This document shows positions 7,731-41,788 of a stretch of 64,000 nucleotides of DNA, one piece after another. Below the pieces are notes generated by a model. That model made no database searches. It was not told the origin of the DNA and worked only from the letters and a program-made list of their open reading frames with translations. Every line of letters starts with the position of its first letter. Position 1 is the first letter of the stretch. The stretch comes from Schistocephalus solidus (lineage: Eukaryota > Platyhelminthes > Cestoda > Diphyllobothriidea > Diphyllobothriidae), in assembly GCA_017591395.1 (NCBI GenBank), contig WEDG01002122.1, positions 1-64,000 of the forward strand. The letters run 5' to 3'. The position numbers were made by a program, and so were the translations under genes.

Positions 7731-7805
7731 TGGCGCAGTGGTTATATGCGTCACCATATGTATCTGCGACGAGGGTTCGATACTCGCCCGGGTGCCAATT
7801 TTTTT
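7731..7805 (+). promoter_or_regulatory. tRNA-like module T1 (A box, B box, T-run), antisense to LINE C2
   Basis: TGGCGCAGTGG at 7731-7741 matches the Pol III A box and GGTTCGATAC at 7774-7783 matches the B box, 33 nt apart. A run of seven T follows at 7799-7805. The folds do not make a complete tRNA. It lies 143 nt upstream of the CxxC of C2 ORF1 and points the other way. See T2-T5. Confidence 0.55.
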
Positions 7806-8038
7806 CTAAGTGCAGATGAATCCTGACTGTCTGTATTTTCCATACTCCTTAGGATTGTATGCGAATGCATTTAATTTATAAATCTTCCTAAATAAATGGG
7901 CTAGGGTGCAATAGTATTCAGCAGTCAGACTTCTTATAAACATGCAACGACGCAGCCATTTTTGTGACTTCTCCTTCCCCGATTGAAAGCAGATTAAAGC
8001 AGCACACCGCTGGCGTGAATTTTGGAAGCAGGTAAACT

Positions 8039-11000
8039 TTGAAGCTAAGCGTAAAATTTCCACAAGAGCATCACTCCGTAAACATGAAGAATTTAGACCT
8101 TGACGCCCTGGAAAATTTTAATATTTTTATGTCTCAATATGGTTCTTTGTTCACGATCCTCGGTATCATTTTTGATAGAAAGTTGTCTTCACTCAATTCT
8201 CAAGAATGCGAGAAACTTGACCCGTTTATAAGTTTAAGTTTAACAAATTGGTTAATACTGATTCATATGACCGACATAAGAGACGTTTCAACATCCTTTT
8301 TAAAAACTTCCCTAAGAGTAAGATCCCTTGGACGTCACATTTTCTGTCCTTTACTAATGCGGCTTTAAGGTTAATGTCACAGAAGATTAAAGGCTGTCTT
8401 CTCGTAATAAAAACTCGCCAAAATGGTCAAACATTTTTCGGCGCTTGAAGTGGACATTATTTCCTCTAAGTATGAGCATTCAGCTCAATATTTGAAGAAA
8501 ACAAAAATCTGTTTATCTGTAGCGATAAAACCCCAATGTAACGTCTACATCTACAATACCAAACGTTATCTCAGAGGTCGGCCCTATAGCTAATGCAAGC
8601 CCATGTCCCTCCAGATCAACAGGAATTTCGATTTTACTTGAATCTTCACCCGTTCACCTTGTTCCTGGTTCGAGTGAAATCGTGTCAACTTCACTTCTTT
8701 CCTCTCCCAAGCAAACTATGCCTGCTTCAGTTGTTAAATCTAGTAAACATAAGAAAACCCCCAGTATATCTGAATAATTTTCTAACTCAGGCATCAAAAT
8801 CAGTAATTTCATTACCAATGGGAATTCCCATTCCACTGAAACGCAGTTAAGGTTTAAACGTTATTAACTTAGTGATATTTATTTTAATCCTGAATTTGTG
8901 ATTTATAACATTTTTTTATAATGTTCACAACAGTAACCAACATATTTCTTTATTTTAGGAACCACCATCGTATAACAGCAGCCATGTGGACAACCAATGA
9001 CAAATTTATCCTGCGCATATACAGTGTTATTTAACTATTTTTACAATAAAAAAACTTTGCAAATTTCATCTTCACATATCCTATTTCATGTGTGAGTGTG
9101 TATATCGCAGGAATGGCTTGAATGGATCCAAACGTAAGCCATATTAATTGTATAAAATTTGGCCGTTTATAGAATAATAATTAGGGGTATATCAGTAGTG
9201 GCCGATTAGGATGAAGAAGGCTATGTGCGGTAGACGTTCGATATAAAGGAAAAGGGGCCGCTAATGCGAGAAAATCGTGGGGTCCCACTGCGCAAATTAT
9301 TCTAGTGAGGGGGTTAGGCTGGGCTGGTGCTCGTAGGGAAACTTACTAACACCTCAGCATCAAAAACATATGGGAACGATCACGTTACCATTTTTTCTGA
9401 CCCAAAAATTGTCTGAAATCCCACATAATTAAGTCTTCTACTGATGTTAACAGTTTTTCGAACTCATTTATTCATTTTTAAAATGCACGCTTTTCGCCAA
9501 TTTATGCTAATTTCCCTCAAAATCAAATTTCTATGCTACCACCTCTCTTTCCCATGCCACAATAGAGCCTTTCCTTCAATCGTTTCATCCAAATATGCCG
9601 TTGTACAATAATCTCAGTTCTTTTAACAGTAACATTTCGACAAATCGTAGACCAGAGCAATTTTGTTTTCCACCTTTTGTTTCTTCTGTCAAGTTTTCCT
9701 CCCCGCCGCCAAATCTTCCTCTTCTATAAATACTGATGAGCGTAACCTGCAGCTAAGGAATATGCTCGGGTTAGTTTCACTCAATACGAGATCAGTTGTA
9801 AATAAGATGACAGTGCTTTTAACAGTAGCTTTTGAGCTGGATCCAGATATGCTGTGCATAACTGAATCCTGGGCTCACTCTCTTATTTCCGATTTGACGC
9901 TTGCTATAGCTTATTTCAATTTGTACCGACAAGACCGCGCTAAAAAACATGGTGGTGGTTGCTTTCTTTATATTAAGTCATCCTTTGTACATTTCCCTTG
10001 TCAGCTGAGCATTTCGTCTTTTTCTTGAAATGTATGCTTTGCTTCAGTCATCCACCCGTACAATATAAAAGTGGTAATTGGTTGTGCATATAATCCTCCG
10101 TTTTATTCTGGCAATGAAAGCGAGCTCTGTAAACTATTTTAAAATGTTTCAGAGACTCAATTTGATGTCAAAGTAATCGTAGGTAATTTTAATCTGCCAA
10201 AACTTCAGAAATTGTTCGATACTATTAATTTTTCAAACATGTCCAAACTGGTCAGTTCAGTGATTAGAAATGACAACATTTTAGATTGAATGTTTACAAA
10301 TCGTGTCCACCCTCTCTTTATGAATTTTCATCGTGATCTATTTATAAGTGAGCAGGCACTAATTCCCTGCTGTTTTCCAGTCTCCCTTCTTACAAAGCCT
10401 GAGGTTAAATGTAATAACCTCAACTTTGCTAACGCAAACCATGAATTAAAAAATAATTTCGTTAGCACTCTAGATTGGCAGAACATAATTCCAAGCAACG
10501 ATCCAAACTTTTCCCATGAGCTCTTGCATATACTCACAGAAAATATCCAGGCTTTTATCCCGTTTAAGATTTTTAATTCAATACAGCTTCTTCTACTGTT
10601 CCACAATGTTTCCAAAACAGACCCATTGTAGCAATAGATATCTAGTAGATGTACGTGAATGGCTATTTATCGAGATAACTGTCTCTTTAACCTCATTGGT
10701 TAGTCAAGTTATGTAAGCAGACATTTCATTGGTTGCCGTTCTTTAAGCGCATTGCGACACTTTTTGCGCGCGTACGTGCCACTATTGGCGTGAACGGCGT
10801 CGTAAACGTTATCTGACCTATCTATTAACCTTTTATTTTCCCCATCTTTTCCCAGTTACTTTCCCCATGACTCGGAGAAAGGACCATCGGGAATTTAAGT
10901 GACCCTCTTGAAACTATATTTTTGCTACCTCCGGTCGCCCATGAACTATGATATCTCCTTATATCACCAGTCATCCAAACGATGACGTCATTCGGACGTA

Positions 11001-11504
11001 CACATTCGATGGTCTAGTCTAAAATGCTACCGTTTCTATGGATACTAACCATCATCAGAATTCAATTCTGGATCCTAAGATGCTGATGACTGAAGTTCAT
11101 TGACACATTTTCGTGAGATTTTGTTTCATACGCCTAAGTGATCAAGAACGAATCGCCTCGACGTTTCATTATCTCATTCTGAAATGCTACTACCGTATTA
11201 CCCTACTCTACCACCTGACCATTTTTTCCTAAGCAGTTCTTTTCTCCTACCTTCTTTAAAAAATGAAGGCTTATTGAACTCTGACTCCATTTTTATGGAA
11301 GGAGTTTTTTTCACTGCCTATTTTTCTAGCTCGCCATTAATTTTAAAACATCGCTAACTGTTGACATAGCAGGACAAGTTATGTATTTGTACATTTTATC
11401 TGCATACATTGTCCTAACTTTATTTCGTTACTAATGTTTGCTTAGACAGTGCCTTGCCGGTGCTAACCAAATATAAATTCTAAATAAATAAATAAATAAA
11501 TAAA
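8039..11504 (+). mobile_element. LINE D1, CR1-like, internally deleted
   Basis: Plus-strand LINE. ORF1-like frames at 8039-8450 and about 8650-8850 carry LDLDALENFN and ILGIIFDRKLSSLN. ORF2 starts near 9740 with the endonuclease: VSLNTRSVVNKM at 9772, CITESWAHS near 9858 and HGGGCFLYIKSS. It continues to about 10630. Nearly all reverse transcriptase is then missing, and the family's 3' UTR follows (10840-11480, shared with D2 and D3). The copy ends in a (TAAA)n tail at 11481-11504. The 5' limit is uncertain, and 8850-9640 has no recognised coding sequence. Confidence 0.75.
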
Positions 11505-11561
11505 CTGCCCCTCCACTACCTTGCCTTTATCCATTTATATCTGTTTATTTATGTTTTACTA

Positions 11562-14500: not shown

Positions 14501-14721
14501 TGCAGCCTGGAATGCAAACGGCTTGTATAAATTATCCGATTTTGAGTCTGCCATTGCCAGGCGACTTAAACGATCACTTGAAAGCCATTTTCAGAGGCTG
14601 CAAAAACAAATTGGCCGTCCAGCAGACGGTAAATCAATATCCAATTTTTTTAAAATACTGCTTGCTTGCAGGCAACAATGCTGGACCATCGTCGGTTAAC
14701 CTACCGCCCTCAACACAATGA
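11562..14721 (+). pseudogene. DNA transposase, DUF4218-like with DUF4806-like tail, decayed
   Basis: Remnant of a large transposase on the plus strand. A charged N-terminus (11562-11828) is followed by PKLREWALRNNISHAQIREI, then ENQRPK and, after a one-base deletion near 12137, MWPILERVIRPF and SIYCRGGKPSDVHAFC. A zinc-type segment YHGCERCTVTG is at about 12390. The next blocks are DFDSWKATELRQFILY (12770) and HIADDVERHGPLDTFSSFPF (13021), reached by another one-base shift. This order resembles the DUF4218-type transposases of CACTA/EnSpm-like elements. LHSATEFRQLNNQLMNQEFG at 14190 resembles DUF4806, often found with them. In-frame stops at 11829, 11982 and 12588 confirm decay. No terminal inverted repeats were identified. 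Confidence 0.6.
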
Positions 14722-14919
14722 CGACGGAGGAAAAAGAAACCGCACACCTTTGTACATATTCCTTTGAATTTCTAAATAAATTATTCAGTAAATACTGTCT
14801 TCACCAAGCTTTATACTTAAAAATACAGGTGCAAGGGGCATTATAAGCGTAGTAGGTTAGTAAAAAGCACCAACCGGAAGGCGTAGGTACCGTTTTCGCC
14901 GGTTGCCGAATATCTTGAT

Positions 14920-15025
14920 AAATCGATATCTAATAGATATATATATAAAGCGGCCAAAATAGATATACAAAAGATATATATATCTCGATTAATAGATATC
15001 TAATAGACATCTTGTAGATATTGCT
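14920..15025. repeat. AT-rich palindromic tract
   Basis: Repeated TCTAATAGATA units and (TA)n runs in direct and inverted arrangement between the decayed transposase and LINE D2. It might be the edge of the DNA transposon, but no matching end was seen at the left side. Confidence 0.4.
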
Positions 15026-15299
15026 TGCTACTAGGGACTTAAAAAATTACCAAAGCAACTTAATTATCAAGCTAAAAGCTCTTTGTCAGTTCATTTACGG
15101 CTGGCACAAATATTTGAATTAGTCATGAAAATCAGGCTCGCGCAAGATAGGCATAGGGAGTCTCGGGCACAAAGTGATGCCAATTCATCCAAATCTGTTG
15201 CTCAAATCTTCCACGTTCGGTCATCGGCTAAGCGTCTGGATGTAACTCCGCCTTTACTTACCTGTAAATAAATTTTGTTACAGGAGATTTTGGCAAGGC

Positions 15300-16794: not shown

Positions 16795-16862
16795 GGAATC
16801 GAGGTGCCATAAGCGACCTGGAAATAACGAGGTATATACAAGGGTTCCGTACAGCTGAACAG

Positions 16863-17096: not shown

Positions 17097-17129
17097 ACTT
17101 CCTGACAAGGGTTTCTTCTGATTTAGAGC

Positions 17130-17985
17130 TTTTAGGGCTGCCTTTATAAAATGGATGTCAGACCTAGTCTTGAATACTGCTCGTTTCTATTTAGCCTTCT
17201 GCTCGCTAGTGGACGGAAGAAGCTATAATCAGTCCAGCACTTCTTTACTAAAATAGTTTTTTCTTCAGAACACAGAAGTCTGTACTACCAACAACGCTGT
17301 GAGCCTACAAGCCTTGACCCTTTGTGGCTTTGCAGATTACAGAAGGGAATAATATTACTGTTTAAACTTTTAAACAGTTGTATCTTTAACCCCTTTACAT
17401 CTCTGAGGCAACTCGACCACTTTCGAGGCACCAGTAATCGCGATGTATTCTTATTTCATTCTCTGACACGCATCATTAGATACCGTCAGTTTATTTTCGG
17501 TAAACGCTATAGCAAACTGGAATAAGCTACCCAGAAGTATCAAAATTCAGCAAAGCTAGCCTTTGTTTACGAGAGCTGTCACTAGTTTTCTACATTCAAA
17601 ACACCTTCCAAAAATTTGGGTGCTGGCTCAGTTGAAGTTCTTTTCCGTTCTGATAGCGTTCACGGACTCTGAATCTTGTGCCAGACTTCATGCTGAGGGC
17701 AATATTGCTGGCTCTGCAGACCTTAATCGGCTTTTTACTCATTCCACAGCGAACAGCCTTTCGCCAACGTACTTGCTGGTGCGGAATACCATGAACACCG
17801 AATTCACCGTGAACTTGTGTCAACGTTTCCCTGTCCTGAACTTTAATCCCTCAAGAAGCTGCAGTTTTTTCTTCTGAAAACACCTGAAAGAACGATCAGG
17901 AGTTTTCTTTCACTGTCAGCTCGACCCTCTACTGTATATCTCTTTTGACCTTGCCTGTCAACTGGCAAAAAAATAATAAATAAAA
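17130..17985 (+). mobile_element. LINE B2, 3' fragment
   Basis: 5'-truncated copy of the B family, matching 37040-37900 of B1 through the end of ORF2 (RPSLEYCSFLFSLLLAS near 17160, then LDPLWLCRLQKG) and through the 3' UTR. The end keeps the hairpin TTGCC...GGCAA followed by an A-rich tail (17967-17985). Several stops interrupt the frame. Confidence 0.8.
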
Positions 17986-17999
17986 CAGGGATAAATCCG

Positions 18000-20229: not shown

Positions 20230-22400
20230 TTTCCCTCAATTAATGGAAAAAAACGAATTTAATTTACTTGAATTGGATTCCAAGCTTAGGAATATACATT
20301 TGGGTATATTAAACGTTAGAATCCACTTGCTGGACTAGACAGCCAATTTGCCAAGATTTTCTTGTAGTTTCTGTGCATCGTCAACAGAGCTGATTGTTGT
20401 CTAGATTTTTATTTCATCTGCAAAGATAATGGCATCACAGTCAAGATGATCATGCTGTCGTTTATATAAATGAGAAACAGAAGAAGACCTAAGATTGAAC
20501 CCTGCGGAACACCAATTTCTAATGTTACTCACTTGGATTCAGTGGTGTCCAATAATACTTTTTGCAGACTACGTGGCAGGAAACTTTGCTCCATTTAAAA
20601 ACGTTACCCTGGATAACACATTGCCGAATCTAATGTAACCGTCACCGATGACGTACCCCATCAAACGCCTTCTGTAAGTCGAAGAAAATGACATCAACTG
20701 AGCGGCCTTGGTCTATGGCTTTTTACCGTTTTTTCTGTGCGTAAAAACAACTCGTAAGACATAAGTGACCGAGGTGAAAGCTATGCTGGGCAGTACATAA
20801 TATGCTCTTCTGCTCTAGATACTTCATTATATGTCTCTTTATACGTTTTGCCGTGGCCTAGCACAAAATGCAGGTTAGAATAATGGGACGGTAATTTTCC
20901 GATTCCATTTTGCACCCTCCGTTGTGGATTGAGGAGATAAGGACAGTTTTCCATTTCTGTGGTAGTTTGCCCTCTTCCATGAACTTTTAGAATATCATAA
21001 AAACCGGCTCACACGGTACATCGGCCAATTCTTGAAGAGCATGTGGCTGAGTTCTGTCAAGACACTGCAACTTGGCAGGCTTCAGGCGGAGTAATTAAAT
21101 CCTTAAATATGTGGGTGAGAAGTTAAGATTATTTTCTAGTGCAAACGTTTCCGAATGTTGTATATGCCCTGAGTAGGGGATGGCGGAAAAGTTTTTCATG
21201 TGTGAATACCGAGTGAAATAAGCTAGAGGTAATTGAGGCTTTTATTTCGTCATCTGTTGCCAGTACTCCGTTTTGGGACCACAGCGATGGAATCGGGCTA
21301 CGATTTCTTTGGTTATTGCGTATGTAAACGTATAGGATCTTGGGATGCTCCATATAGTTCTGTAGTATGATTAGCTCATAGTTCCTTTGGAGTCAGTTTG
21401 CTTCACGCTTAGAGACACCCGTTGTATTTTTTATTTCTGCAAGCGTTTGACACTCCCGGTTAGTCAAAACCACTTCCATATCTTATTTCTTCATTTTTAG
21501 GGGATCTGAAGTTCGCTGTTTATCCACCACGCACGATTGTTTGTTTTCATTCGTACAATTTAGATTAATAATTCTTTCAACCAACGAACTTATCGTTTTT
21601 CAGCATTCGTCCACAGTTCCCCGTAATGTGCTTGTCCACAGTATTGCTGAGATTTGCGTGCACATTATGGAAAAATCGCCCTTCCAGATTTTTGTTTCCA
21701 GTTTCTTCAGTGAGTCAGGCTGTGGGAACATGGAATACTCAACGAGCAGAAAAATGTGGTCACTAGCGCCTATTGGCGCTAGATCTTGTAAATCCAGCAC
21801 ATTGTCCTCGTCTCGGGTGAACTCTAGGTGTAGACAATTTGAACTCTGTCCTTCCCTGATGCGTGTCCCCATCGATACATTCTGGACGAGAACGTTTTTG
21901 CCTCCCATTTCAAGCAAACGCTGAGTAAATAAATCCGTTGGACCCGAAACAGTCCAAGTTTCCCAGTGCATATTAGGAGCGTTAAAGTCTCCAACGATTA
22001 TAAGATCTTTGTTTAAGCACGTCTTGGTCAGCTCCGTTAGGAGAATTACATCGCGTTCGACATTCTGGTTTCGGGGACGGTATGTAATTGTGAATGCCAG
22101 CGGCCGTGCGTGCTTAGTTGTAAGAGTTAAGGATAACTCTTCACTTAATGCTCTCATGGGATGGGGCTTGGAATTCGCAGTTATATTAGAGCTAACATAA
22201 AAAGTGATTCCAACTCCGCGGTTTCTCCTGTCTCTTCTTAAGTGTTGGGAACCATGGAAGGATACTTCATATTCTCGAATATCTTCTGAGAGCCACATTT
22301 TGGTAAGGGCAATTATATCTGGCGCTTGTTTCTCAACAAACGTCCGAGGCTCTTTCATTATATTGAAAAGTCTCTATACATTTAAGTACATAACCTTCAT
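20230..22400 (-). pseudogene. LINE G ORF2: endonuclease and partial reverse transcriptase
   Basis: A long open stretch from 22358 to 21600 encodes most of an APE-type endonuclease: PDIIALTKMWLSEDIREYEV, RRDRRNRGVGITFYV, IIVGDFNAPNMHWETW, CLHLEFTRDEDNVLD and PIGASDHIFLLVEYSMF. One departure from the usual motif is TETW changed to TKMW, which removes the catalytic Glu. RT follows in broken frames. Its catalytic box reads FADE instead of FADD (20430, on the minus strand). The homology ends near 20230. Confidence 0.8.
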
Positions 22401-22439
22401 ATCAAGGGCCCTAGAAACTGTTGCTTGGAGGGCTACCAA

Positions 22440-23570
22440 TCTGACGCGTTCACCAGACCACGCCATCGTCCTAGTGTATGTGTTCTGTGTGTTGATTGTC
22501 TGAACAGTGGACTGGGAGTCAGACGGCGATGGCTCCTCCATAATTCTGGTGTGTGCGTTATGGAGGCCAGGTCGCGCTGTGGCGCCCGAAGACGGGTACG
22601 CTGACCCGTCAGCCAATGCACCCACTCCCAGAAAACTGACTGGCTCGGACGGTGGTCTGATTGTAGGGGTCGTGTAGTGAGTGAGGTCGATGGCTCAATG
22701 CATTTTCCTCCGTATATAAAGTCTGACGCGCTTGTAACTATCACGGTGCACTAATAGCCGTGGCTTAGAAGGTTGACAACTGACGGGATAACTCGAACCG
22801 CATGGTCGACCCAGTGCGTGCGTTTGTGCGTCATGGACGAGTGGTGGACTGAGAGTCAGGTTGCAACGGCGTTTTCTCTATGTGGCCTTTATGGCACTCT
22901 CGCTCAGTTGAGATCCGAACCGCCACTCACTTCTGTTGTTTTGTTCTTTATTAATTAATTATTTTTCTTTTTTGGAGTAGAACCGCAGAGCTTGGGCCTA
23001 CGCAATCTCCCATCTCCGGTCTTCTTGATTCCGTCGTGACACCGGGACCAGGTGCGGAATCAGAACAGAGAGTGGGGGAGATGAAGGCCAAGTCTATTCT
23101 CACTATAATCCGGCGCAAGTCACCGTCCCTGCACAGCGTACAGTAGACATCGTCGAGCACGAAAGTAAAACTAGCACATGAACTATATTGTCCATCTTCT
23201 CGGCAAGAACCAGCTCTGAGCATATGACAGTTCGACAGTCGATTTCGACGAGGTCAACCGTATGCTCCACACCAGGTGGTACAGGGACGGGGACTTGCGC
23301 GTGAATTAGTTTTAAGTGGAAGTAGCCCTGCGCTGTAGCTACCGCACTATCTCCTCCTCCCCCACTTGAGCCCGGTGTCAAGACAGAGTCAAGAAGACCG
23401 GAGATGGGAGAGGGCGCAAGTGGCTGGCGTGGCCGGAGCCACCCCTTGGTGTACCACGAAACCTGACTCGGATCCCACGGAGTGAAAGTGCAATAAAGGC
23501 CACATGAAGAAGAAGACATTACAGCCTGACTCTCAGTCTGCCAGTCAGCCACTCCACACAAAACACACAA
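22440..23570. repeat. R1 repeat cluster inside LINE G
   Basis: Contains an R1 copy on the plus strand (about 22636-23200) and another on the minus strand (about 23220-23570), head to head, plus a fragment at 22460-22640. The plus copy has TATATAAA at 22713-22720. The minus copy encodes LDSVLTPGSSGGGGDSAVAT and QGYFHLKLIHAQ, shared with the R1 copies at 49.5, 53.4 and 63.5 kb. LINE G ORF1 stops and ORF2 starts at the two edges, so this is a later insertion. Confidence 0.7.
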
Positions 23571-23574
23571 GAAG

Positions 23575-24721
23575 TACCTCTTCATCAATATGCTTTCCTT
23601 GTCCAATATTTGGAGCAATTTTTCCCCATTTGGGTCCTCCTCTTCAGTTCGGTTGTCAGCTCCCACATTTTGTGTCTTTCTACCGGTTCGTAATCCGACT
23701 GAAAAAAATATCTCTGCATGAACTATGGAGAGACATTCTCCGTTCTATAAGGTACGAGGCCTGCACTTCATTTTCCTGAATTATTTTCAGAGGCTGTGGT
23801 GATTACAGGTAATAAGAAGCATTTGCTTTCCCTAGACGGAAGGCTTTGTGCACGGTAACGTATTCTCCACGTTGAAGGACGGCATTGTAATATGTTTGGA
23901 ACTGATTCAGGTCATTTTCTTCTCTTTCTTTTGCAATCGAGAAGTTGACACAGAAGCCCTTTTTATGACAACATTTCATTTGCGGTCAAGATGCTTGTTT
24001 TGGTTACTTGATGCTATGATTTTCTGATGGAGCTTAGACATCAGGAGGAATTATATTCTGCGTTAGTGCTAACATTTATGGATGACATACTGGCTTCCGT
24101 CTGAGAATCTTTACAGCCTGCTGGCGTATTCGCTGCCATAAACTGGCTGCTGTGTGACCCCCCCCCCTTTTTGAGGTGGCCTTGTGATGGAATGGAGTGA
24201 TAGCGTCCCCTTCCAGAATTAATGGCTTGCCCTTCTTGTGGTTTCTTTTAGGTTTTTGAGGTTCGTCCTAGCCTTTCCTTCTTTAGTGCTCAGTGATTTG
24301 GTAGGTTAAGTTGCCATACCAGGTAATAAAACGTCGATCATCATTGTTGAATTAACTTCAACTGCCTCGTTATTTAACGGAAATTTTTTTTTGTCTGGAG
24401 TTCCCCCTGGATATGAAACTCAATTCCTCTTCCTGAATAGTTTTGAGTTTCCAACAACTATGCCTTTTTACGAGGGTAGTCATTGCTTGTCGGTTGGGGA
24501 GTTGACGGTATACGAAGGGATTTCCTTTTGCTGTCCTCTAGAATAGCTAAAATGATTTCAGTCAGTAGGCCTTGCTTCTCTTCAAGTATATGGACTCGCT
24601 GATTAAGGTCCTCAAAACCAATACAACGATGTACTGCTCTGCAATCTATCTCATTTATTGTATGATATCCGTTTTTTAGTCCTATTTTCCTTTGGTGTTT
24701 CCTAGAGTCCACTGTGTACAA
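23575..24721 (-). pseudogene. LINE G ORF1
   Basis: Minus-strand ORF1, broken into several frames. The N-terminal part has HRCIGFEDLNQRVHILEEKQ, a Cys-containing segment leading into a coiled coil like that of ORF1 in A, B and C2. The C-terminal part (23960-23580) matches the RRM-like region of ORF1 in C1 and C2 at the nucleotide level. Its 3' end is cut by the R1 cluster. ORF1 proteins of CR1/Jockey LINEs bind their own RNA; this copy cannot make an intact one. Confidence 0.65.
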
Positions 24722-24837
24722 TCACCCTGGAATCTAATGATTTCATCGGTATTTTTACACAAGACACTCTTGAAAAATTAAAAATTAATGTCAGTTTATG
24801 CTCCGCATTTAAACAATTACTTTGATTACTGATGAGT

Positions 24838-24918
24838 CGTGCGCTCGTGGTGCTGTGTTGAATGCATTGATCTTCATTACGGAAGGTTGCAAGATCGAAT
24901 CCTTTTGGTGCGGTTTTT
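24838..24918 (+). promoter_or_regulatory. tRNA-like module T3, antisense to LINE G
   Basis: A-box-like TGCGCTCGTGG (24840-24850) and B-box-like AGATCGAATCC (24892-24902), with TTTT at 24903 and TTTTT at 24914. The A box is weaker than in T1 and T2. Confidence 0.4.
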
Positions 24919-25124
24919 GGACGCGTCCTTTTTGACTGTGACTGATGCCAGTAAATGGGTACTGGTTTCCTGTTGTGTCCCCTTGAGTCCACTACGTTAA
25001 ATCACCACTTGGCCTAATGTACCTGCGGGTATTTTTCGTAAGACACCGTTAATTGATTAAAAAAATCATTCTCAGTTGCTGTTCCGTAGCTGAAAAATTA
25101 ATTTGTTTGATCCCGGGCTGTGCA

Positions 25125-25200
25125 CTCATAACACAGTCTGAAGCGTGGTGGTCTTGGTTGGGAGAGGCCACGGGTTTGACCCCGGGGTTTATGATTTTTT
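25125..25200 (+). promoter_or_regulatory. tRNA-like module T4, antisense to LINE G
   Basis: A-box-like TAACACAGTCTG (25129-25140), B-box-like GGGTTTGACCCC (25172-25183) and six T at 25195-25200. The A-to-B spacing is 31 nt. The T-arm can pair CGGG with CCCG. Confidence 0.45.
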
Positions 25201-25240
25201 ATACGCATGCTCTATTTTTTGAATGGCTTATACAGTACGG

Positions 25241-25690: not shown

Positions 25691-28640
25691 TCATCTCAAA
25701 ATCATTCTTGAATATCATGTTCAGGCTTCAAACCTCAAAGAATGGAGAATGGCTCTCCGTAGCTTACCTCGGAATGTGTTTTTTTCAGCTGAGAATGCTA
25801 AGATCCGAACTGAAGAGGATAACCGAAAAGGGGGAAAATGGTTCCAAATAAAGGATGGCGAATAAACATTTTGTAGAGGTCTTTCTTGTAGCCGACCCCG
25901 AAAATCATAAAGGCGGGTCCTCACCAAGATGGAGGACGCTAAATACGAAGAACCTTAATGTACAGAGCTCGTATAACAAAAGGAACGCGTTCCAGAACTT
26001 GATTGAAAACCACTCATCCGACCTCAGCCTGGGCAGGATGCACGCCTGTTCGTCTTGGGAAGTACTGAGAGATTCTAGCATTCAATGAGCAGAAGTCTAT
26101 ATCGAGGAATAACCCAGCCTAAATTGAGATGCTTGTTTACCAATGCTCAGATTCTCCTTTCAAAAATAGACGAACTCAAGGGACTAGTCTCAGACCGAAC
26201 CCGTGATGTCGTTACCATTACGGAAACGTGGCTCAAAGCCGAAATCGCAGAGAGCGAGGTTTCGATAGATGAATATTAGTTCTTTCAAAGAGACCGAGAA
26301 AAACGACAGGGAGGTGGAGTGGCCGTATACGTTAGGACAGGAATCTCGGCAGTCGAACGAGCGCACGCCATCTCCTTTAAATATGAATTTCTTTGGATAA
26401 AGATTAAAAAGGATTGATTACAAAACCGACAAATCTTGACGATCTACAGACGACTAAACATTCCAAGTGCAGTTGATGAGTCACTCCTTCATTTGGTCAA
26501 GGAAGTAGCAAGTCACAAGGAGGTGCTTATTGCTGGAGATTTCAATGCACCTACAATAGACTGGGTAAATCTGACAGTCAACGGTGCACCAACTTCATTT
26601 GGCTGCAAGTTAATGGATCTCACTCTTGACCGACCTCTTGTATAGACGGTTAACTTACCATGTCGATTTAGAGAGAACCAGAGAGTCAATTGCCTGAAAC
26701 CTAGTATGTACGAAGGACTTCTCTTACATTGATGAAGTGTATTCTACTGCACCTACCACTAAGAGTGACCATAATACGCTGCTGTGGGATTTCTCACTTT
26801 ATTCTTAGCGCCAGAAGAGAACGGATGGCAAGCGAAATATGTGAAAGACTGAGTTCAACGCGATGAAGAAAGAACTGAACAGGCAGTTAAAAGAAGGTAT
26901 TCAGGAAAGCAAAATATCTTAGGGAATTTCGTCGCCAAGGAAATGCTGTCAAAAAATGATCCGTTAGACAAACAAGAACTACGAATCAAGAATTATCCAG
27001 CAGGCTGAAAATAAGCATAAAATGTTAGTTCATTATATCAATAGTCGATTAAAAAACAAGGACCTAGTCACAGTACCTACGGATGCGAATGGTATGGAAG
27101 TCATTGAAATGGCAATAAAGCCGAGCACTTTGGTCGCTTCTTTGCCTCGGTATTCACTAGGGAAACTGAACTTCAGCTTGACAATGTGCTGTTGTAAACG
27201 CTGGTCCAGTGCTTGAGTGTATACTCTTGCCGGAACATCTTGTGGAACGCGAACTGAACAATCTTAAAGAAGCAATGTCATCTGGTCCGGACGACATACC
27301 GGCAAAATTATTGAAAGAATTGGTAATCTATTTCTCCAAACCACTAGCGCATATATTAAGTTCATCATTTGAATCAAGGAGACTTTCATCCGAATGGAAG
27401 GCATCAAATACATGCCCGATATACAAGACTGAGGCTCAATCTTATGTCAAAAATTATCGGCCTGTCAGCCTTACCTACATGTTCTGCAAAATAATGGAAT
27501 GAATATTTAAGAAGGCGGTCATAAAGTTCCTGGAAGAAAGTCGTTTGCTATCAGAGCTCCAGCATGGCTTCAGACAGAATCACTCTTATCTTTCCCGTTT
27601 ATTGCTCTCGACAGAGAAGTGGACTAGCGCAGTGGACGAAGATGTTAGGGTTGACATCATTTACACTTTTTCAAGAAGGCGTTTGACAGTGTCCCACACA
27701 AACGTTTAATCTATTAATTATTTGAAATTGGAATAACAGGAATGCTGCTGACATGGATCGCAGATTTTCTTACAGGAAGATGGCAAACTGTGTGCATTGA
27801 TACCTCAAATTCAACACCTACTCCGGTTCTTAGTGGTGTCCACCAAGACTATGTCTTAGGGCCATTACTCTTCTTAGTGAACATCAATGACTTTGTTGGT
27901 GACATGGGTTGCAGCCTCATCATGTTTGCAGACGATGTTAAATTGCGGAGGGCCATCAGATCTGATGCCGATAAGAACGCTCTTCGAGAGGATCTCAACC
28001 GTCTCAGCAATTGGTCGGCTCGTTGGCTCTTAAATTTTAACGTTCGGAAGTGTGTGGTCCTAAGAATGGGTAACAAAAGGACTAGTGAGAAGGATAATTC
28101 CTTCCAATACATTCTCCATGGGCAGTCCCTTTCAATTGTCGAGGAATATAAGGACCTCGGTTTTCTAATAAACTCCTCACTCAAACCATCTTCATTGTAT
28201 TTAAAGGCCGCCTAACGCGCGACACAGTTCTTATTTGCTCTCAGACATGGATTTGTGCAGATTGATAAAGAACTATTCTGAAAAACGTACGAGGAATTTG
28301 TTCGATCTTACTTGGAGTATGCCGTCCAGGCCTGGCATCCGTCGTTTAAAAGGGATTATCTACAGCTGGAACGAACGCAGGTGAGGGCTACGATCATGGT
28401 CAAGAATCTAAGTCATCTGTCTTATAAAGTCAGAATGGAGAAACTTGATTTGTATCTTCTCAATTACAGGCAAATACGTGGTGACCTCATCCAAACCTAC
28501 CAGATTGTCAGTGGCCATGAGTTCGCCTTAGAATTTGCTGACTTCTTTGAATTGGCTGCATGCATCCGTTCCACCACGTTGTCCACCATTGAACGTGGTA
28601 GCACAACACGCTTTGGATATTCGTCGCTGTAATGGTAGAA
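25690..28640 (+). mobile_element. LINE C1, CR1/Jockey-like, 5'-truncated
   Basis: Plus-strand LINE, sister of C2. It starts inside the end of ORF1 (SAENAKIRTEEDNRKGGKW near 25787). ORF2 endonuclease follows: CLFTNAQILLSKIDELKGL at 26131, TITETWLKAEIAESEVSIDE, GGGVAVYVRTGISAV and VLIAGDFNAPTIDW. RT includes SSGPDDIPAKLLKELV (27279), YRPVSLTYMFCKIME, LGPLLFLVNINDFVGDMG and the intact catalytic MFADDVKL (27923). The C-terminal block is VRATIMVKNLSHLSYKVR. The usual GVPQGS is changed to GVHQDY. Stops and frameshifts occur throughout, especially at 26643-26960. No clear A-rich tail was found. Confidence 0.85.
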
Positions 28641-33471: not shown

Positions 33472-34718
33472 ATGCAAAACTCAAGTCCCATAAGTTTATT
33501 GTCACAAAAAATTGGTCCACGACCAAGCTGCTTGGGACCGTCTATCGGCGCCTCTACCCATTCGGCCATATTGGCAGGGGATCTTGTCAAGCAAGTTAAT
33601 GTACAAGCAGAAAACAATTTTAATTATCGTTATTCTGCTCTTTGTTCACCTCTCGCTAAACGGGGTAAAAGTTCAGTAAGCTTAACTTATGTAGCTTACG
33701 AAGACAAAACATGTATGGGGTGTTTCCGCCTCCAGCAGAAATTCTCAGGGATGGAGCAGGAAATAAGGAATCTAAGACAAGAAATAGATAACTTAACAAA
33801 ATCTTTATCTTGCCCAACTGCTAAAAAGCTCCTGTTCGTAATAAACCTACTACAAAGCAAAATTCGTATTCATTTATAGCTTCTTCAAGCTTACATAAAA
33901 GTCAACTTAAACATATCGCGACTGCTGGACCCGGTAAACCAGAGGAATTTTCGCTACTTCCGAAGGGAGCCCCATCTAGTCCTTGCGCCACTCCACCGGT
34001 ACTTAGTTCGGGTAGCATCAGCACTAATCTGGCTTTACCGCCCATCGCTACATCACTGGTAGACGTTGCACCAACATGCGATGTTGAAGAGGTTGGCGAG
34101 TTTGTAAAGCCAAAGAAGAAAAGGTCTAAGAAGAACAAGTCGTGCACAGACTTGGCTCTAGCCTGCCCAAAATCCGGCTCATCTGGACCTATCAGGCAAA
34201 GTGAGCTGGTTACCAGTACTCACTCAGCTGAAAGATCTGAGTTACAAACGGGCCCTAGATTGAGTCAAAAACAGAATGTAATCATTAAAGGTGTCCCGGA
34301 GTCAGCTTCAATTATTCCAAAGGAGCGAGTTAAACATGACTTGGAACTCCTTAAATTGTATGCAAAAACGCTGCTGACGGACGGCGAGTCCATTCATATT
34401 CTCAAGGCATATAGAATAGGGAAGGTTCTGTCTACACCCGATTCAAATCCTCGACCAAGACCTCTTAAAATCATCTTGGAAAACGAAGCGCAGGCACAGC
34501 TCCTGCTACAGAGAAAATCAACCCTGCGGGGTCCGCATTCTGAAGTGTTTTTTCAACTGGAATATGGGTTGAAAGAGCGAATGAAAATGCGACAGCTAAT
34601 AATCGAACTGAAAACACGAAAGACCAATGGCGAGGCAAATCTCAAAATAAGGGATGGACAGATAGTTCAAGTGAAAAGAGCATTTCTCTGGCCGAAGGCA
34701 GTCACCCTGACAGCCTAA
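33472..34718 (+). pseudogene. LINE B1 ORF1 (CxxC, coiled coil, RRM-like)
   Basis: ORF1 in two open pieces (33472-33876 and about 34150-34718) joined by a frame-disturbed stretch. The first piece has SPLAKRGKSS, then CMGCFRLQQKFSGMEQEIRN, a CxxC followed by heptads of a coiled coil. The linker is Pro/Ser-rich with a basic KPKKKRSKKNK-like patch near 34110. The second piece has NVIIKGVPESASIIPKERVK and LRPRPLKIILENEAQAQLLL-like blocks of the RRM-containing ORF1 proteins of CR1/Jockey LINEs. Such proteins bind LINE RNA. The start at 33472 is the first ATG, but a downstream start is possible. Confidence 0.7.
33506..33568 (-). promoter_or_regulatory. tRNA-like module T5, antisense to LINE B1
   Basis: On the minus strand TGGCCGAATGGG (33568-33557) is a good A box of the leucine/serine tRNA type. 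About 31 nt later TTGGTCGTGGACCAA (33526-33512) takes the place of the T arm and pairs TTGGTC with GACCAA. Six T follow (33511-33506). It overlaps codons 13-33 of the annotated ORF1 frame and lies 144 nt before the CMGC motif. Confidence 0.5.
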
Positions 34719-34755
34719 CTGTCCCGTTTCAGAAACCAAAAACGTGCCCGCTTAA

Positions 34756-37571
34756 ACTAATCGTCCTCAATGCCAGATATCTGCTTAATAAGATGCCTTT
34801 GCTCCAGACTCTGGTTTTCATCCACCGCCCGGACATTGTAATAGTTACAGAGACATGGGCAACACCCTGTGTATCCGACTCGGAACTCTCTATTCTAGGC
34901 TACGCTTACATTCGGAATGATCGACACGAGGGCCGTGGCGGAGGAAGCTGTATCTATGTTAGGCAACCACTTACATTTTTCCATTGGACTATCGCCAATT
35001 TACCGCGGTAGAGGAGAGCTGTTGGCTCCCAGTAGATCTAAAAGATAACTACTGTTTACTCGTTGGTAGTGTCTATCGCCCACCCAATGCCAGCGAGGAT
35101 TACGATCTTTGTCTCTCGCTGGCATTTCACGCTGCAGCTGACTTAAATCTGAAGTACTGCTTGATTGCAGGTGACTTCAATCTTCCTGAAATTCACTGGT
35201 TTCCAACTTCCGGTCCTGCAAAGTTCGAAGACCTACTTGAGGCCATAGATATAGGCATGTGGATTTTCCCACTCGAGGATCAAACATACTTGATCTTATT
35301 TTTTGTAGAGGTTGTCAGCCATCGTCAGTGTCACCTTTAGATCCACTTCGGAATTCTGATCACACTATAGTTCTTTCTACACTAGAACTAGAGGCTGCCG
35401 AAACGTTTTCCAAAAAATATAGCTTTTCCGTGATTTCAGATCAGCAAATATGAGGGAATTGCTAACACACCTTAAATTCCCACGACTGGACTAACTTCTT
35501 TGTATGTTCGGATGTGAATGTTTGTACTGATACTTTTTACAAACTTCTATGTCCACTCATCTCTCGTTTTATTCCCGTAAGAAAATAATTAATGTCAAGG
35601 ATGAAGTCTACCTCCCTTTATCATTCCGCCGTAGACTGCGTAGACTCTCCGTCGTTTTCATCTACAAAACGACACCTCCATCCTGCCCTTGATCCAGCAA
35701 ATCTTTGAAGAGGCTAAGAGGCTGTCTGACGAAAAACGACAAGCCGATGAGGTTACCTTTGCCGAAAACCCTTCGTTAAATGTTGCGAAGCTCTTTTCGC
35801 GCACAGTAAAAGCGCAGAGAAAAACGCAGCACCCCGTACTTCGAGACGCCTTAGGAAACCCAATAGCTGACGCTAAGTTGACAGCTGATAGCTTCAATGC
35901 TTTCTTGTCTAGAACGTTTAGTGAACATACTGTCGCCCCCTTTCCTAACATCCGGGTTTGGACAGGTAACGTCCTCGAAACCATAACTTTTACCCTCTGG
36001 GACGTGACCGTAGCCATTCGGCGTTTTCGTCAATCTTACAGTCCAGGACCAGATGGCGTCCCGGTCAGCGTTCTAAAAGGTGGATGCAAACGATATATTT
36101 CCGTCCCTTCTGTATAAGATATTTAATCTTGCTCTTGAAAGTGAAACTTTCCCTTTTTTATTGAAGAAATCGCACATACTGCCTATTCCCAAACACGGCC
36201 GACCTACGTCATTTGACGACTTAAGGCCAATAAATACACTACCAGCAGTCTCGAAGATCTTAGAGACCTTAATAAAAGACAAGATGATGCGTCACCTAAG
36301 AGAGAATAACCTACTTAATGCTGCTCAGCATGGTTTTCTCGAAAAAAGGTCTTGTGACACTTGCCAGCTCTCTTTCTTCGATCATGTGCTACAATCTAGA
36401 GACAGCGGTTTTGCAATTTACACCGTTTACTTCGATTTCACTAAGGCTTTTGATCGTGTTGACCATGATCTCCTACTGCTGAAACTTGCCTCCTTCGGCA
36501 TAGGTAACAAGCTTCTGAACTTAATATTTTTCCTATTTGAATGCTCGCGCACAACGGGTTAAAATTTCTGATGTTATCTCCAACCCCACGCATGTGAGGA
36601 GCGGAGTTATTCAGGGCAGCGTGCTCGGCCCGCTTCTATTTTGCCTCTTTGTCAACGATGTTCCTGATTGTTTTCAGTATGGTAGGCCCTTTCTGTACGC
36701 TGACGATTTAAAAGTTGCCTATCAATATAAACCGATTGATCGCAACATCGTGCTTTAGCTCTTAAAAACGGATCTTCAGGTCTTCGCTCAGTGGTGTCGC
36801 ACATGGCGCCTCTCATTTTCTTGGCAAAAGTGCTCCGTTATGGTTATTGGCGACAACCATCAGCCCCACCTAAGCATAGACGGTCACGATCTAAACGTGC
36901 CCGGAGTTATAAAGGATCTGGGCATATCATACTCTAGTAGTCTTAATCTGTCAGAGCACTGCGCCCTGATTGTCTCGAAAGCACGCCAAACTACTGGGTT
37001 TATTCTCAGAAATTTTAAAACCGTCAAAATTAGAATCAGCCTCTATAAAATGTATGTCAGGCCTAGTCTGGAATACTGCTCGTTTCTATTTAGTCTTCTG
37101 CACGCTAGTGAACGAAAGAAGATAGAATCAGTCCAGCACTTCTTTACAAAAAGAGTTTTCTATTCAGATCACCGAAACCTGTCCTACCAACAACGCTGTG
37201 AGCTTACAAGCCTTGACCCGCTATGGCTTCGTAGATTACAGAAGGGACTATTTTTACTGTTTAAACTACTAAACAGTCGTACATTTAACCCCCTTACATC
37301 TCTGAGGCACCTCGACCACTCTCGGCGCACCAGTCATCGAGATGTATTTTTATTTCTTCCTTTGGCACGCACAGTTAGATACCGACAGTTTTTTTCGGTA
37401 AACGCTATAGCAATCTGGAATAAGCTACCTAGAAGTATCAAAATTCAGCAAAGCTATCCCTTGTTTACGCGAACTGTCACTAGTTTTCTACATTCAGGAC
37501 ACCTTCCAAAACTTTTGGGTGCTGACTCTGTTGAAGCTCTCTTCGGTTCTGCTGGCGTTCACGGACTCTGA
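34756..37571 (+). pseudogene. LINE B1 ORF2 (endonuclease and reverse transcriptase)
   Basis: Endonuclease: LIVLNARYLLNKMPLLQTL, IVIVTETWATPCVSDSELSI, GGGSCIYVRQ, CLIAGDFNLPEIHW and RNSDHTIVLS. RT: SYSPGPDGVPVSVLKG (36032), FDDLRPINTLPAVSKILETL, AAQHGFLEKRSCDTCQLSFF, YFDFTKAFDRVDHDLLLLKL, GVIQGSVLGPLLFCLF and the catalytic FLYADDLKV (36689). The C-terminal region from 36840 stays open to 37571. Frameshifts near 35010, 35340, 36100, 36550 and a stop at 36756 inactivate it. Full RT order is retained. Confidence 0.85.
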
Positions 37572-37907
37572 ATCCTGTGCCGGTCTTCATGCTGAGGGAA
37601 AAATTACTGGCTCTGCAGACCTCAATCGGCTTATTTCTCAGTCGACAGTGAACAGCCGCTCGCCGACATACCTGCTGGTGCAGAATACCGGATCCGTAAC
37701 ACTGAATGGAGAGGTTCTTCACCGGTCATCTGTGTTAACGCGTCCCTGTCCAGAACTTTAATTACTCAATAAGCTGCAGTTTTTCTCCTGAAAACACATG
37801 AAACAACGATCAGGAGTTTTTTTCACTGTCAGCTTGACCCTCTACTGTATATATTTTTTTGACCTTGCCTGTAAACTGGCAATAAATAAATAAAATAAAA
37901 TAAAATA

Positions 37908-40459
37908 TATTAAGACTGTCAACCATCTTCGTTGCTCTCCGTTGCACGTGTTCTAGGAGGTCAACATCTTTATTCATCCATGGTATCCAGGCTGGTATTC
38001 CGTAGTATAAATGCGGTCTCACAAAGACGCCATAGACTTTTCCGAAGAGATCCTTGGGGAATATTTTAAACGCACGTCTGATCCAATGTAGTGTACATGT
38101 TGCCTTCTGGACTGCTTTATTACAGTGTTCTGAGGGCATCAAATTTGCAGTTGTCCACATGCCCAGATCTTTTTATGTTTCTACCTCTTTAATGCACTGC
38201 CATTAATAAAGTACTGGTATCTCAGAGATACTTTCAACCGGCGCTTATGTGTAGGATCACGCACTTGGATACATTAAACTTACGAAGCCACCTAGCCGAC
38301 CAGGCACTTAGTTTGTCGATATTCGATTGTAGCCCTTTTGCGTCATCAGCGCAGCTGACTTCGGTCCATATTTTAATGTCAGCTGCAAACATGACAGCTT
38401 CACAATCTAGGTCATTGAGACAGTCGTTCACGTAGATTAGGAAGAGTAGGGGGCCCAAAACCGAACCCTGTGGAACACCACTTTCTACTTTTGCCCATTC
38501 TGAGCTAGAATTTCCAACAACAACTCTCTGTACTCTGAAAGACAAGAAACTCTTGATCCAATTGAAAAGTTTTTGAATTCCTACGTTCCAAATCTTCTGT
38601 AAAAAGAAGCCCGTGTGGTACACTATCAAAGTTCTTTTTGAAGTCAAAAATACAACATCTACTGCATGACCCTTATCTGTTGCCTTTGTCCATTTCTCGT
38701 GCGACTGAAGGGCACTCGTGAGACAGGAACGTCCTGGACGGAAGCCGTGTTGGGCATCGCATAGGATTTGGTTTTTTCCAGATAGCGCATTAAATGCCTC
38801 TTGATAATACGCTCCATTATTTTACACGATATGCAAGTTAAACTGACAGGGCGGTAATTTTCGCAGTCGAGTCGTGAACCTCCTTTATAGATCGGGGCGA
38901 TGAATGCGCACTTCCATTCTTCCGGGAGTTTGCTGTCTTCAAAGGACTTTTGGAGTATGATGGACAGTGGTACACGCAGTTCGTTAGCAAGTTCTCTAAG
39001 TGCTAATGCAGGAATTCTATCCGGCCCAGGCGACTTGGCAGGCTTTATACGGAGTAATTTGGTTTTAACTACGGTCGGTGAAAAGTCTAGGTCTAGGTCC
39101 TCTGTTGTGGATGAGGAGGAGGTGGAGGAGTAAGGGAAAGGGGGGGGTACACATTGTTTGACAAACTGGTTGAATAGCAGCAAAATTATTAGGCTCTCTG
39201 GTGAAGACTGTCTGGAAGAATTTGGAAAGAAGGGATGCTTTAACCTGGTCTTCAGTCTCCAGTTTTCCGTCTGCAGACCTAAGGGCAGGAATCATTTCCT
39301 GAATTCTCTTTGTACTCCGTATGTAGCCATATAGCATTTTGGGGTGTTCCAACGATTTTTGCAGTTTGTTAAGTTCAAACTTCCTCCGCAGCTTAGCAGC
39401 CTCACATTTACAAACGTTGCGTTGCTGCTTATATTCCCGTAAGTGAGCATCGGAGCCAGTTTGTCTGTAACGCTTCCAGAAGCGATTTCTTTTTTTGAAA
39501 GAGGCCTGCAAGTTTGAGTTTATCCACTTTGGGCGGTTTGTGGTTGTCTTTTTCCTGAGAGGACAGTTGAGGTAAACAATCCTTTTCAATAACGAACTCA
39601 ATGTCGTCCAATCTTTATTGGTTTCACCATGTAGTTCTGTTTCCCAGGATATCTCTGACAGTTGTCTTCTCATAAGTGAGTAGTCCCCCTTCCAAATGTT
39701 TCTTACCCAAGTATCGGGTAAATTTGGTTTGGAAAACAGTGAGTACTCGAAGCACAGCGTAATGTGATCACTTGACCCTAATGGCGGTTGATCCTGTAGG
39801 TCTAGCACATTTTCCTCATCTCGGGTAAAAATCAGGTCAAGACAGTTTGACTGTTGTCCTTCTCTCGTCCGTGTTCCAAAGGTGACGTACTGAGAGAGAA
39901 GTTTGTCTGTTGCCCATTGTAGTAGTTTGTGGTTGAAGTTATCTGGCATTCCCTGCGCAGTCCATGTTTTCCAGTAAATATCAGGAGCGTTAAAATCCCC
40001 AAAAATGAGGACCTCTTTCTTCTCGCTGGCTTTGTAGAGTTCCGTTGCGAGAATGAGATCCTGATCGGAAGTCTGATAAGGCGAACGGTACACAACCGAT
40101 ATCGTCAGTGGTCTGGAATACTTAGCAGATATAGTAATGCTTAAGAATTCCACATCGCGTAATGGAATATGTATGTCAGCCATTGCGGTCAGCTTGCGAG
40201 TGACATAAACTATGACTCCTGCTCCTCGACTTGGTCTATCTCTCCTGAAGTGCTGATATCCTCTGAGTGATATTTCGGAATCTGTAATTTTTGCAGTAAG
40301 CCACGTTTCAGTGAAAGCCATAACGTCTGGTTTAATTTCGTCAACAACGTTTCTAAGTTCGTCCAGCTTGTTGAACAGGCTTTGTACATTTGCGGAGATC
40401 ACTTTCAATGATCGATTCATCGAGAAGACCCAGCCTTCATTGTTACAGGTTTTAGCCAC
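37908..40459 (-). pseudogene. LINE A ORF2 (endonuclease and most of reverse transcriptase)
   Basis: A 464-codon frame (40459-39065) covers the whole APE-type endonuclease: VISANVQSLFNKLDELRNVV, VMAFTETWLTAKITDSEISL, GAGVIVYVTRKL, VLIFGDFNAPDIYW, CLDLIFTRDEENVLD and PLGSSDHITLCFEYSLF. It then runs through the basic linker into RT. RT continues after a shift near 39150: KSPGPDRIPALALRELANEL, IAPIYKGGSRLDCENYRPVS, VESGVPQGSVLGPLLFLIYV, then the catalytic box as MFAADIKIW, with Ala in place of the first Asp. VQRRATKMVDSL ends this part at the B1 junction. A stop region lies near 38650. Confidence 0.9.
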
Positions 40460-40752
40460 AGGAAGGACACATTTATCTGGACTATTTGACCGTCTTTGAT
40501 TTTCAGCCGTTTCTCTCCTCTGCCAATTCTCTCCATCAATTCTTTCCGCAGTTCCTCATTTTCAGCCGTTCCCTCGGCTCGTAGTCCGGCTGAAAAACAC
40601 TTGTTTGTGCGATTCCCGTAAAGTCCTTCTTCCTTCTAACAGAAGTGCTGCCTGGGTTTCATTTTCTAAAATAATTTTTAGAGGCCTTGGGGATATTCTC
40701 ATGTCACGGCTGGGGTCTGCTTTGCCTAGTCGGAAAGCTTTTTGCACGGTGT

Positions 40753-41177
40753 AAATTTCCCCTTTCTTCAGGACAGCACTAGCATATTCATGAAGAAGAT
40801 TAAGACCGTGTGTCACTCGTTCCTTCGGAATGCAGGACGTGGATTCTGGGACACCCGTATTACGAAATTTCGTTTACGATTTATGGGCGAGGTCCTAATT
40901 TGCCCGCCCACTCTAGGTGGGGAGTTCACAGAGGTGGCGTTACTCGTGGATGCTGGCGCGGTTTAAATTTCCCATTTCTTCAGGACTGCACTAGCATGTT
41001 CATGTAGAAGATCTAGATCGTGTGTCACTCGCTCCTTCGAAATGCAGGACGTGGATTCTGGGACACCCCTTATTACAATATTTCGTTTACGATTTGTGGG
41101 CGAGATCCTAATTTGCCCGCCCTCGCTAGGGTGGGAGTTCACAGAGGTGGCGTTACTCGTGGATGCTGGCACTTCAA
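40753..41177. repeat. Tandem duplication of about 212 bp in LINE A ORF1
   Basis: Copy 1 (40753-40964) and copy 2 (40965-41177) share AAATTTCCC, GTGTGTCACTCG, GGACGTGGATTCTGGG and CAGAGGTGGCG at a constant step of 212-213 bp. The period is not a multiple of three, so it breaks the ORF1 frame. Confidence 0.85.
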
Positions 41178-41708
41178 CATGAGAGTGATTTTTGTCCGAT
41201 GCTGGGATTCTGGGACTTACATTTTTGGATGATATATTACCTTTGTCTTCTGAAACTCGTTTCTTTATTTTCTGGGATCCCTGCCGGTTGCCTTCTTTCC
41301 TTACGGGATACTGTTTAACAGCTACATCGAGCTCCATAGACGTAGCGTCATCTTCCTTGTTGGATGTGATGCCTACGGAAGCTGTGCCTGCGTATGTGCA
41401 TTTGTCCCCCTCATGTTCCATCGTTAGGGACTGCTTCTTTTCGGGCAAATTGTGAGGAAGTTTTTTTTTAACTTCTCTATCTCCATCTTCAGCCCCTGCA
41501 TATCCTTTTCAATCTCTGAAATTTTTTGAAGAAGTTTAAAGCATGTCGCACACGCTTCATCCTCGTTATTGACATCCAAAAAACGTACTAAACTCTTGGC
41601 CCGTTTGGCGGAAGGTGATTTTAAGGAAAGATTTCTGGAAATGAGGTCCTTCGTATTAGGATTTATGTTTATTCCATCATTAAAAATTAGGTCAGCGAGT
41701 TTGTCGTG

Positions 41709-41788
41709 CGGCGATAGCTCAGTGGTATCACCGTCGTTCCCCGCACGCTGGTGCCCCTGTTCGATTCTCGGCAGTGCCACATATTTTG
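41709..41788 (+). promoter_or_regulatory. tRNA-like module T2, antisense to LINE A
   Basis: TAGCTCAGTGG (41715-41725) is an A box and GTTCGATTC (41759-41767) a B box, 34 nt apart, with TTTT at 41784-41787. It overlaps the N-terminal codons of ORF1 on the opposite strand and begins 163 nt from its CATC motif. The arms do not pair well enough for an intact tRNA. Confidence 0.55.

Follow-up and report, generated by a model that had tools for sequence, protein, structure and literature searches.

Do the long interspersed nuclear elements (LINEs) of the tapeworm Schistocephalus solidus carry, inside their own coding sequence and on the opposite strand, the signals of a gene for RNA polymerase III (Pol III)? 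The question is raised by a 64,000-nucleotide (nt) stretch of contig WEDG01002122.1 (GenBank assembly GCA_017591395.1, positions 1 to 64,000; hereafter the window), in which an earlier note described five A box/B box pairs, each followed by a run of T, near the N-terminus of the first open reading frame (ORF1) of four LINEs called C2, A, G and B. Our analysis finds all five modules at the coordinates given there, and verifies their T-runs and their orientation opposite to the LINE (the minus strand of the window carries LINEs A, C2 and G, the plus strand LINE B). Box pairs with a T-run antisense to the start of ORF1 are present in LINEs A, C2 and G, so that the core observation is real. The count of five pairs is overstated, because T3 is the degenerate product of a duplication and T5 has only an A box and a T-run; the pairs that stand are T1, T2 and T4, with family consensuses of 17, 16 and 17 of 17.

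Pairs were scored with the patterns TRGCNNARNGG for the A box (0-2 extra D-loop bases; 8 scored letters) and GGTTCRANNCC for the B box (9 scored letters), giving a maximum of 17. The modules and the LINEs that bear them are as follows.

7731..7805, plus strand: T1, antisense module of LINE C2; A box 7731-7741, B box 7774-7784, seven T at 7799-7805; window copy 16/17.
41709..41788, plus strand: T2, antisense module of LINE A, opposite ORF1 codons; A box 41715-41725, B box 41758-41768, TTTT at 41784-41787; window copy 15/17.
24838..24918, plus strand: T3, degenerate module of LINE G and the second in this element; the unit that bears T4 is duplicated in tandem, and T3 lies in the copy ~287 nt away.
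25125..25200, plus strand: T4, antisense module of LINE G; A box 25129-25140 (decayed in the window copy), B box ~25173-25183, six T at 25195-25200; window copy 14/17.
33506..33568, minus strand: T5, half module of LINE B; A box 33558-33568, six T at 33506-33511, no B box (5/9 letters).
5196..7843, minus strand: LINE C2; ORF1 (ATG at 7843) and part of ORF2, frame-broken.
21195..25231, minus strand: LINE G; decayed ORF1, with ORF2 represented by its endonuclease part; the majority of matched copies stop near 25231.
33472..37568, plus strand: LINE B; ORF1 (ATG at 33472) with CxxC and, by eye, a coiled-coil-like stretch, then ORF2 frames.
41400..42146, minus strand: 5′ region of LINE A; element 5′ edge ~42146, ORF1 ATG at 41822; the alignments of the 27 fetched copies run from ~41400 to 42000 or beyond.

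From the window alone, the case for the boxes is marginal. At a cut-off score of 14, T1 is the top-scoring pair of the whole 64 kb, while T2 shares second rank with three other pairs, which unlike T2 have no T-run. T4 is one of 25 pairs scoring at least 14, compared with 31 in shuffled sequence, which is noise level, and T3 and T5 fall under the cut-off. One pair of at least 16 is observed against 0.13 expected, and two pairs of at least 15 with a T-run against 0.78. The window copies of the modules are partly decayed relative to the family consensuses.

Genome searches over the 604-Mb assembly of 8,019 contigs supplied the other family members. First-look candidates numbered 864 for LINE A, 1,179 for C2, 1,658 for B and 162 for G, with 40 scored in each case; among the other copies listed, we fetched 27 of 40 (A), 34 of 39 (C2), 12 of 39 (B) and 10 of 39 (G), all of them best matches to the window copy rather than a random sample. 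The consensus of LINE A comprises the 27 fetched copies plus the window copy, that of LINE G the 10 plus the window copy, and the box-score consensus of C2 14 copies; a further set, A′, takes in 20 of 150 matched places, 10 of which make up its consensus. The antisense consensus scores are 17 for C2 (with a run of eight T), 17 for T4 of LINE G, 16 for A, 16 for A′ and 13 for B, and the B box of the LINE A consensus is better than that of the window copy.

Among 1500 dinucleotide shuffles each, none reaches the consensus score of A, C2 or G, and 221 reach that of B. The expectation of the earlier note that the boxes would recur in other copies and exceed shuffled sequence is thus borne out by the consensuses of A, C2 and T4, with the boxes kept in A′ as well, and fails for T3 and for T5. 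Chance matching in a long sequence is what the window copies of T3, T4 and T5 look like, and T5 looks so in the consensus too; for T1, T2 and T4, whose three family consensuses beat every shuffle, it is a highly improbable explanation. Single rows score at least 16 in 15/28 (A), 7/20 (A′), 18/35 (C2), 4/11 (T4), 0/11 (T3) and 0/13 (B), the window copy being counted for A, C2, G and B. A run of at least four T within 32 nt past the B box is present in 23/28 rows of A, 18/20 of A′, 33/35 of C2 and 9/10 of T4, or 83/93 when these are pooled, and in 13/13 rows of B at the corresponding place. As complete units, T3 and T5 are rejected: T3 rows score 11-13, with 0/11 at 15 or above, and the 13/17 of T5 is matched by the 221 shuffles.

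The consensuses also fix the place of the modules within the element. A point overlooked in the earlier note is that they lie inside ORF1, with the T-run 30-38 nt past the ATG (by hand count, 35 nt in A, 34 in B, 38 in C2 and 30 in G). Read on the sense strand, the ATG and this spacer come first, then the complements of T-run, B box and A box in that order, and in A, B and C2 the CxxC part follows; the A-box-to-CxxC distances, given earlier as 163, 144 and 143 nt for A, B and C2, come to ~162, 143 and 142 nt by hand count. In the A, C2 and G consensuses the starts of the two boxes are 43-44 nt apart, which is tRNA spacing, and the T-run starts 15 nt (A), 15 nt (C2) or 12 nt (G) after the B box, about where a tRNA gene ends. 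In all four families consensus ORF1 stays open across the module, as far as it was translated. Presence, position, orientation, consensus box letters, place of the terminator and open reading frame are all direct observations.

The host elements are identifiable as LINEs. Pfam matches above cut-off mark an apurinic-type endonuclease domain in ORF2 of LINEs A and G; RVT_1 falls just under its curated cut-off in another window fragment (27718-28212), and the piece of LINE B supplied to the search has no reverse transcriptase match. The decayed LINE A ORF1 of the window is matched at 70-79% by S. solidus proteins P0001-P0003, and a query derived from LINE B ORF1 is matched at 90%, over the full length of the query, by S. 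solidus protein P0005; part of LINE B ORF1 used as a protein query gave no match. The 3′ part of LINE A ORF1 contains a 213-bp direct duplication (~90%, window 40744-41170).

Are the modules tRNA genes, or repeats and genes that merely adjoin the LINEs? The whole-tRNA search proposed in the earlier note returned nothing: ARAGORN reports no tRNA in the window or in 25 LINE loci, although the same tool detects two tRNA-Ser genes in a genome sample locus (L044), and Rfam gives no tRNA match for the modules even at E up to 10. A standard tRNA gene is therefore rejected, neither tool finding a cloverleaf. The earlier note had also allowed that the tRNA-like parts might be separate short interspersed nuclear elements (SINEs) inserted at different positions, which is not what is found in A, where 27/27 fetched copies share a collinear region, or in C2, where 40/40 scored matches to the module (575 first-look candidates) run into LINE flank, one ending at the B box. 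Because 21 of the 26 LINE A copies with fetched flank end at 42132-42148, the module is internal to the element, ~360-440 nt from its edge.

This anatomy bears on whether LINEs insert beside tRNA genes in the manner of the Dictyostelium TRE elements, so that the boxes would belong to the target. LINEs that target tRNA genes do exist (PMC5911963), but a pair of at least 15 lies within 250 nt of the insertion in 0/26 LINE A flanks, the mean best pair score of these flanks being 12.1, near and far alike. With the module inside the element in every fetched copy, we reject tRNA-gene targeting by LINE A, and a target-site effect is the most improbable of the explanations weighed here.

Two arrangements of LINE 5′ regions or modules were seen elsewhere in the assembly. 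At ~1687-1689 of locus L021 (G000:C7337:8000-10388), two LINE A 5′ regions stand head to head, almost without a gap, a possible twin-priming or palindromic insertion. Two C2-type modules lie on the same strand 714 nt apart at G000:C6217:16400-16521 and 17114-17236, perhaps as tandem LINE 5′ ends. A further LINE, in L048/L095, has an unreadable ORF1 N-terminus.

A different possibility is that tRNA or SINE heads were taken up separately by each LINE family, at much the same position and too recently for the boxes to decay. Material for such captures is plentiful: tRNA-like repeats are abundant in the genome (99,172 first-look candidates, 63 scored, 16 matches), the G module is nearer to a SINE head (inter-box identity 0.64) than to A or C2, and no common origin is visible in the inter-box sequence of A, C2 and G. 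Repeated capture does not predict that the ATG-to-T-run distance would be alike in four families and the module-to-CxxC distance alike in A, B and C2, and template switching at a LINE 5′ end would be expected to yield the sense rather than the antisense orientation. Moreover, the sampled SINE heads have no early T-run. Specifically, a 199-kb genome sample holds 11 pairs of at least 16, most of them tRNA-like by eye, and 9/11 have no T-run within 40 nt past the B box; the two that have one are the tRNA-Ser genes of L044. We regard repeated capture as distinctly unlikely.

In L044 (G000:C119:150001-160000), positions 3417-6039 hold a 302-bp unit with a tRNA-like head in 8.7 head-to-tail repeats, six copies scoring 16-17/17, and the two tRNA-Ser genes (8116-8200 and 8458-8542) are inverted, ~260 nt apart and each followed by a T-run. 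A dispersed repeat in the window (22753, 48854, 49248 and 62797) has a start that is A-box-like by eye and is possibly a SINE.

If the modules are old and internal, what has kept their boxes? The main rival to a functional unit is a coding relic: ORF1 would have taken in an old tRNA or SINE head, inverted, as part of its N-terminal coding sequence, and the boxes would persist, untranscribed, by ancestry and peptide constraint. The open consensus ORF1 in all four families agrees with this, as do LINE B, which keeps the reading frame without a B box, and S. solidus protein P0005, which has this N-terminus. LINE G tells the same way. Its first ~290 nt are duplicated into a unit with boxes intact in the consensus (T4) and one with degenerate boxes (T3), and the two retain similar peptides, with an inter-box identity of 0.67 that exceeds 200/200 shuffles. 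Shuffling synonymous codons separates the families: the observed score is reached in 2/1500 shuffles for A, 1/1500 for C2, 199/1500 for G and 507/1500 for B, and therefore the peptide alone does not yield the boxes in A and C2. When A, C2 and T4 are compared with one another, the inter-box sequence is 0.42-0.50 identical, which is shuffle level, and the boxes 0.73-0.91, a contrast that speaks against a coding relic. In addition, the peptides of A, B and C2 differ, and by eye the B box of C2 is in another reading frame than that of A and G. Taken together, a coding relic is unlikely, though clearly less so than repeated capture.

Subfamilies provide a further comparison. The C2 rows fall into two, C2a and C2b (21 + 13, one row left out); clustering of the A, G and A+A′ rows gave no second large group. 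The C2a and C2b consensuses differ at 7/54 module sites, none of them box-breaking: one is an R-to-R change in the A box, two are at free B-box positions, and all box letters are kept. A and A′ likewise differ at 7/54 module sites, two of them at free positions and none box-breaking. That 7+7 random changes would spare the boxes in both comparisons has P=0.0063.

Several results weigh against selection on the boxes, and against a functional unit more generally. Because the modules were noticed by their boxes, the likeness of the boxes between families is partly built in, and of the four families with a module site one, B, has no B box. The A/A′ pair by itself gives P of only 0.06-0.11. Among LINE A rows, where the earlier note had suggested comparing the boxes with background, they are not the more conserved part: variation is 6.5% in the B box and 2.9% in the A box, against 1.8-2.2% at codon positions outside, the B box excess being partly CpG. 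Hyperconservation of the boxes among LINE A copies is accordingly rejected. In C2, 6/14 fixed box sites have a variant common to at least three rows; at non-CpG sites, pooled by hand, the count is 4/35 for boxes and 20/92 for the module interior. In LINE G, the 199 synonymous shuffles that attain 17 mean that the peptide can account for the boxes. LINE B scores 13/17 in 13/13 rows (A box 8/8, B box 5/9) and, its best 39 other copies being 96-98% identical, is seemingly young and abundant; because it has no B box, this family can dispense with the unit, a point against any essential function. The state of LINE B fits either dispensability or escape.

The modules also do not point to a conserved RNA product. 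No fold is shared across six modules, and their fold z-scores run from -1.56 to +1.18 relative to shuffles; we reject a conserved product, none of the six folding consistently better than shuffled sequence. It seems, therefore, that the promoter rather than the product is under constraint. A role of the sense strand could also be imagined, in which LINE RNA pairs with host tRNAs through its tRNA-complementary stretch in a primer- or packaging-like manner. The sense strand is indeed complementary to D-loop- and T-loop-type sequence, but between families the boxes alone match and not the stretches between them, and the T-run, which pairing does not need, is present as well, so that we consider tRNA pairing highly improbable.

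The reading that we favor, with a probability of roughly 47%, is an anciently captured, inverted, tRNA-derived unit for Pol III (or TFIIIC) that is kept near the ORF1 start and acts in cis. That such a unit is conserved, as the earlier note proposed, agrees with the boxes and T-run kept in the consensuses of A, A′, C2 and T4 and not with B or T3. Beyond the retention of the signals, each step is inferred, including a single origin, transcription, TFIIIC binding and any effect on the LINE. The ancestor of these two-ORF LINEs would have gained a reversed tRNA-derived unit just past the start codon of ORF1. The master lineages of A, A′, C2a, C2b and G would then have retained the A box, B box and T-run, with divergence reaching saturation between the boxes and the host reading frame remaining open. 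TFIIIC, TFIIIB and Pol III may assemble on the antisense strand of the LINE, possibly making an RNA of ~85 nt that would end before the ORF1 start codon. By analogy, this assembly could act in cis against Pol II elongation in ORF1, could mark the chromatin of the 5′ end as open or bounded, or could do both, and would so temper expression of the element.

A bolder form of the favored reading is possible but more doubtful. It holds that, in a group of tapeworm LINEs, the start of ORF1 harbors an antisense Pol III gene belonging to the element, selected as a promoter and not for an RNA or peptide, and that occupancy by Pol III or TFIIIC would brake or insulate the Pol II transcription of the element itself. 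LINE B, a seemingly young and abundant family, would on this view have escaped the brake by losing its B box.

Two open or repetitive coding stretches elsewhere in the window, with motifs recognized by eye, may be recorded: an open frame with a FYVE-like zinc finger motif (50781-51317) and degenerate repeats encoding C2H2-like zinc finger units (48156-48651).

How does this arrangement compare with known ones? The tRNA-like SINEs of the same genome (L041, L044, L046) share the 43-44-nt spacing of the boxes, but the sampled SINE-like copies run on into their body without an early T-run, whereas the LINE modules end in one. Mammalian L1 has an antisense promoter at the LINE 5′ end, as here, but that promoter is of Pol II type and lies in the 5′ untranslated region, and the tapeworm unit is of Pol III type and lies in the ORF. 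The Dictyostelium element DRE reportedly has convergent internal promoters of Pol II type. The Dictyostelium elements TRE5 and TRE3 are LINE-type and Pol III-linked, but they target tRNA genes, unlike LINE A, which has no tRNA-like flank (PMC5911963 for the TREs). Helenus, Ajax and Cassandra are retroelements with tRNA- or 5S-derived Pol III sequence, with conservation in Helenus centered on boxes A and B; they are non-autonomous long terminal repeat (LTR) elements whose LTR holds the unit (PMC10886601), and the tapeworm unit is antisense in ORF1. Among retroelements, Pol III boxes have been described in non-autonomous LTR elements (PMC10886601), and a link of LINEs to Pol III in the Dictyostelium elements that target tRNA genes (PMC5911963).

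A close parallel is a tRNA-derived MIR that lies antisense in intron 1 of mammalian Polr3e and reduces the expression of this host gene in cis by transcriptional interference (PMC5358760). As in the tapeworm, a tRNA-type Pol III unit lies antisense within a Pol II unit, and the MIR arrangement is conserved in mammals; cis interference with Pol II through ORF1 is proposed here because of this analogy. The MIR case concerns one host gene, is intronic and is experimentally shown (PMC5358760), whereas the tapeworm unit lies inside a mobile element's own ORF1 and its function is putative. Full-text literature searches turned up no LINE carrying an antisense Pol III unit within ORF1, a weak negative, most subscription papers and transposable element databases being outside their coverage.

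If the units are transcribed, these LINEs would join the LTR elements known for Pol III boxes, and a self-carried antisense Pol III unit would be a simple self-limiting or insulating device for a selfish element. They would also offer a model of Pol II/Pol III collision in many genomic copies, with a natural contrast between A, C2 and G, which have the B box, and LINE B, which does not. If the favored reading is true, a small backward RNA unit may restrain or mark the elements that carry it.

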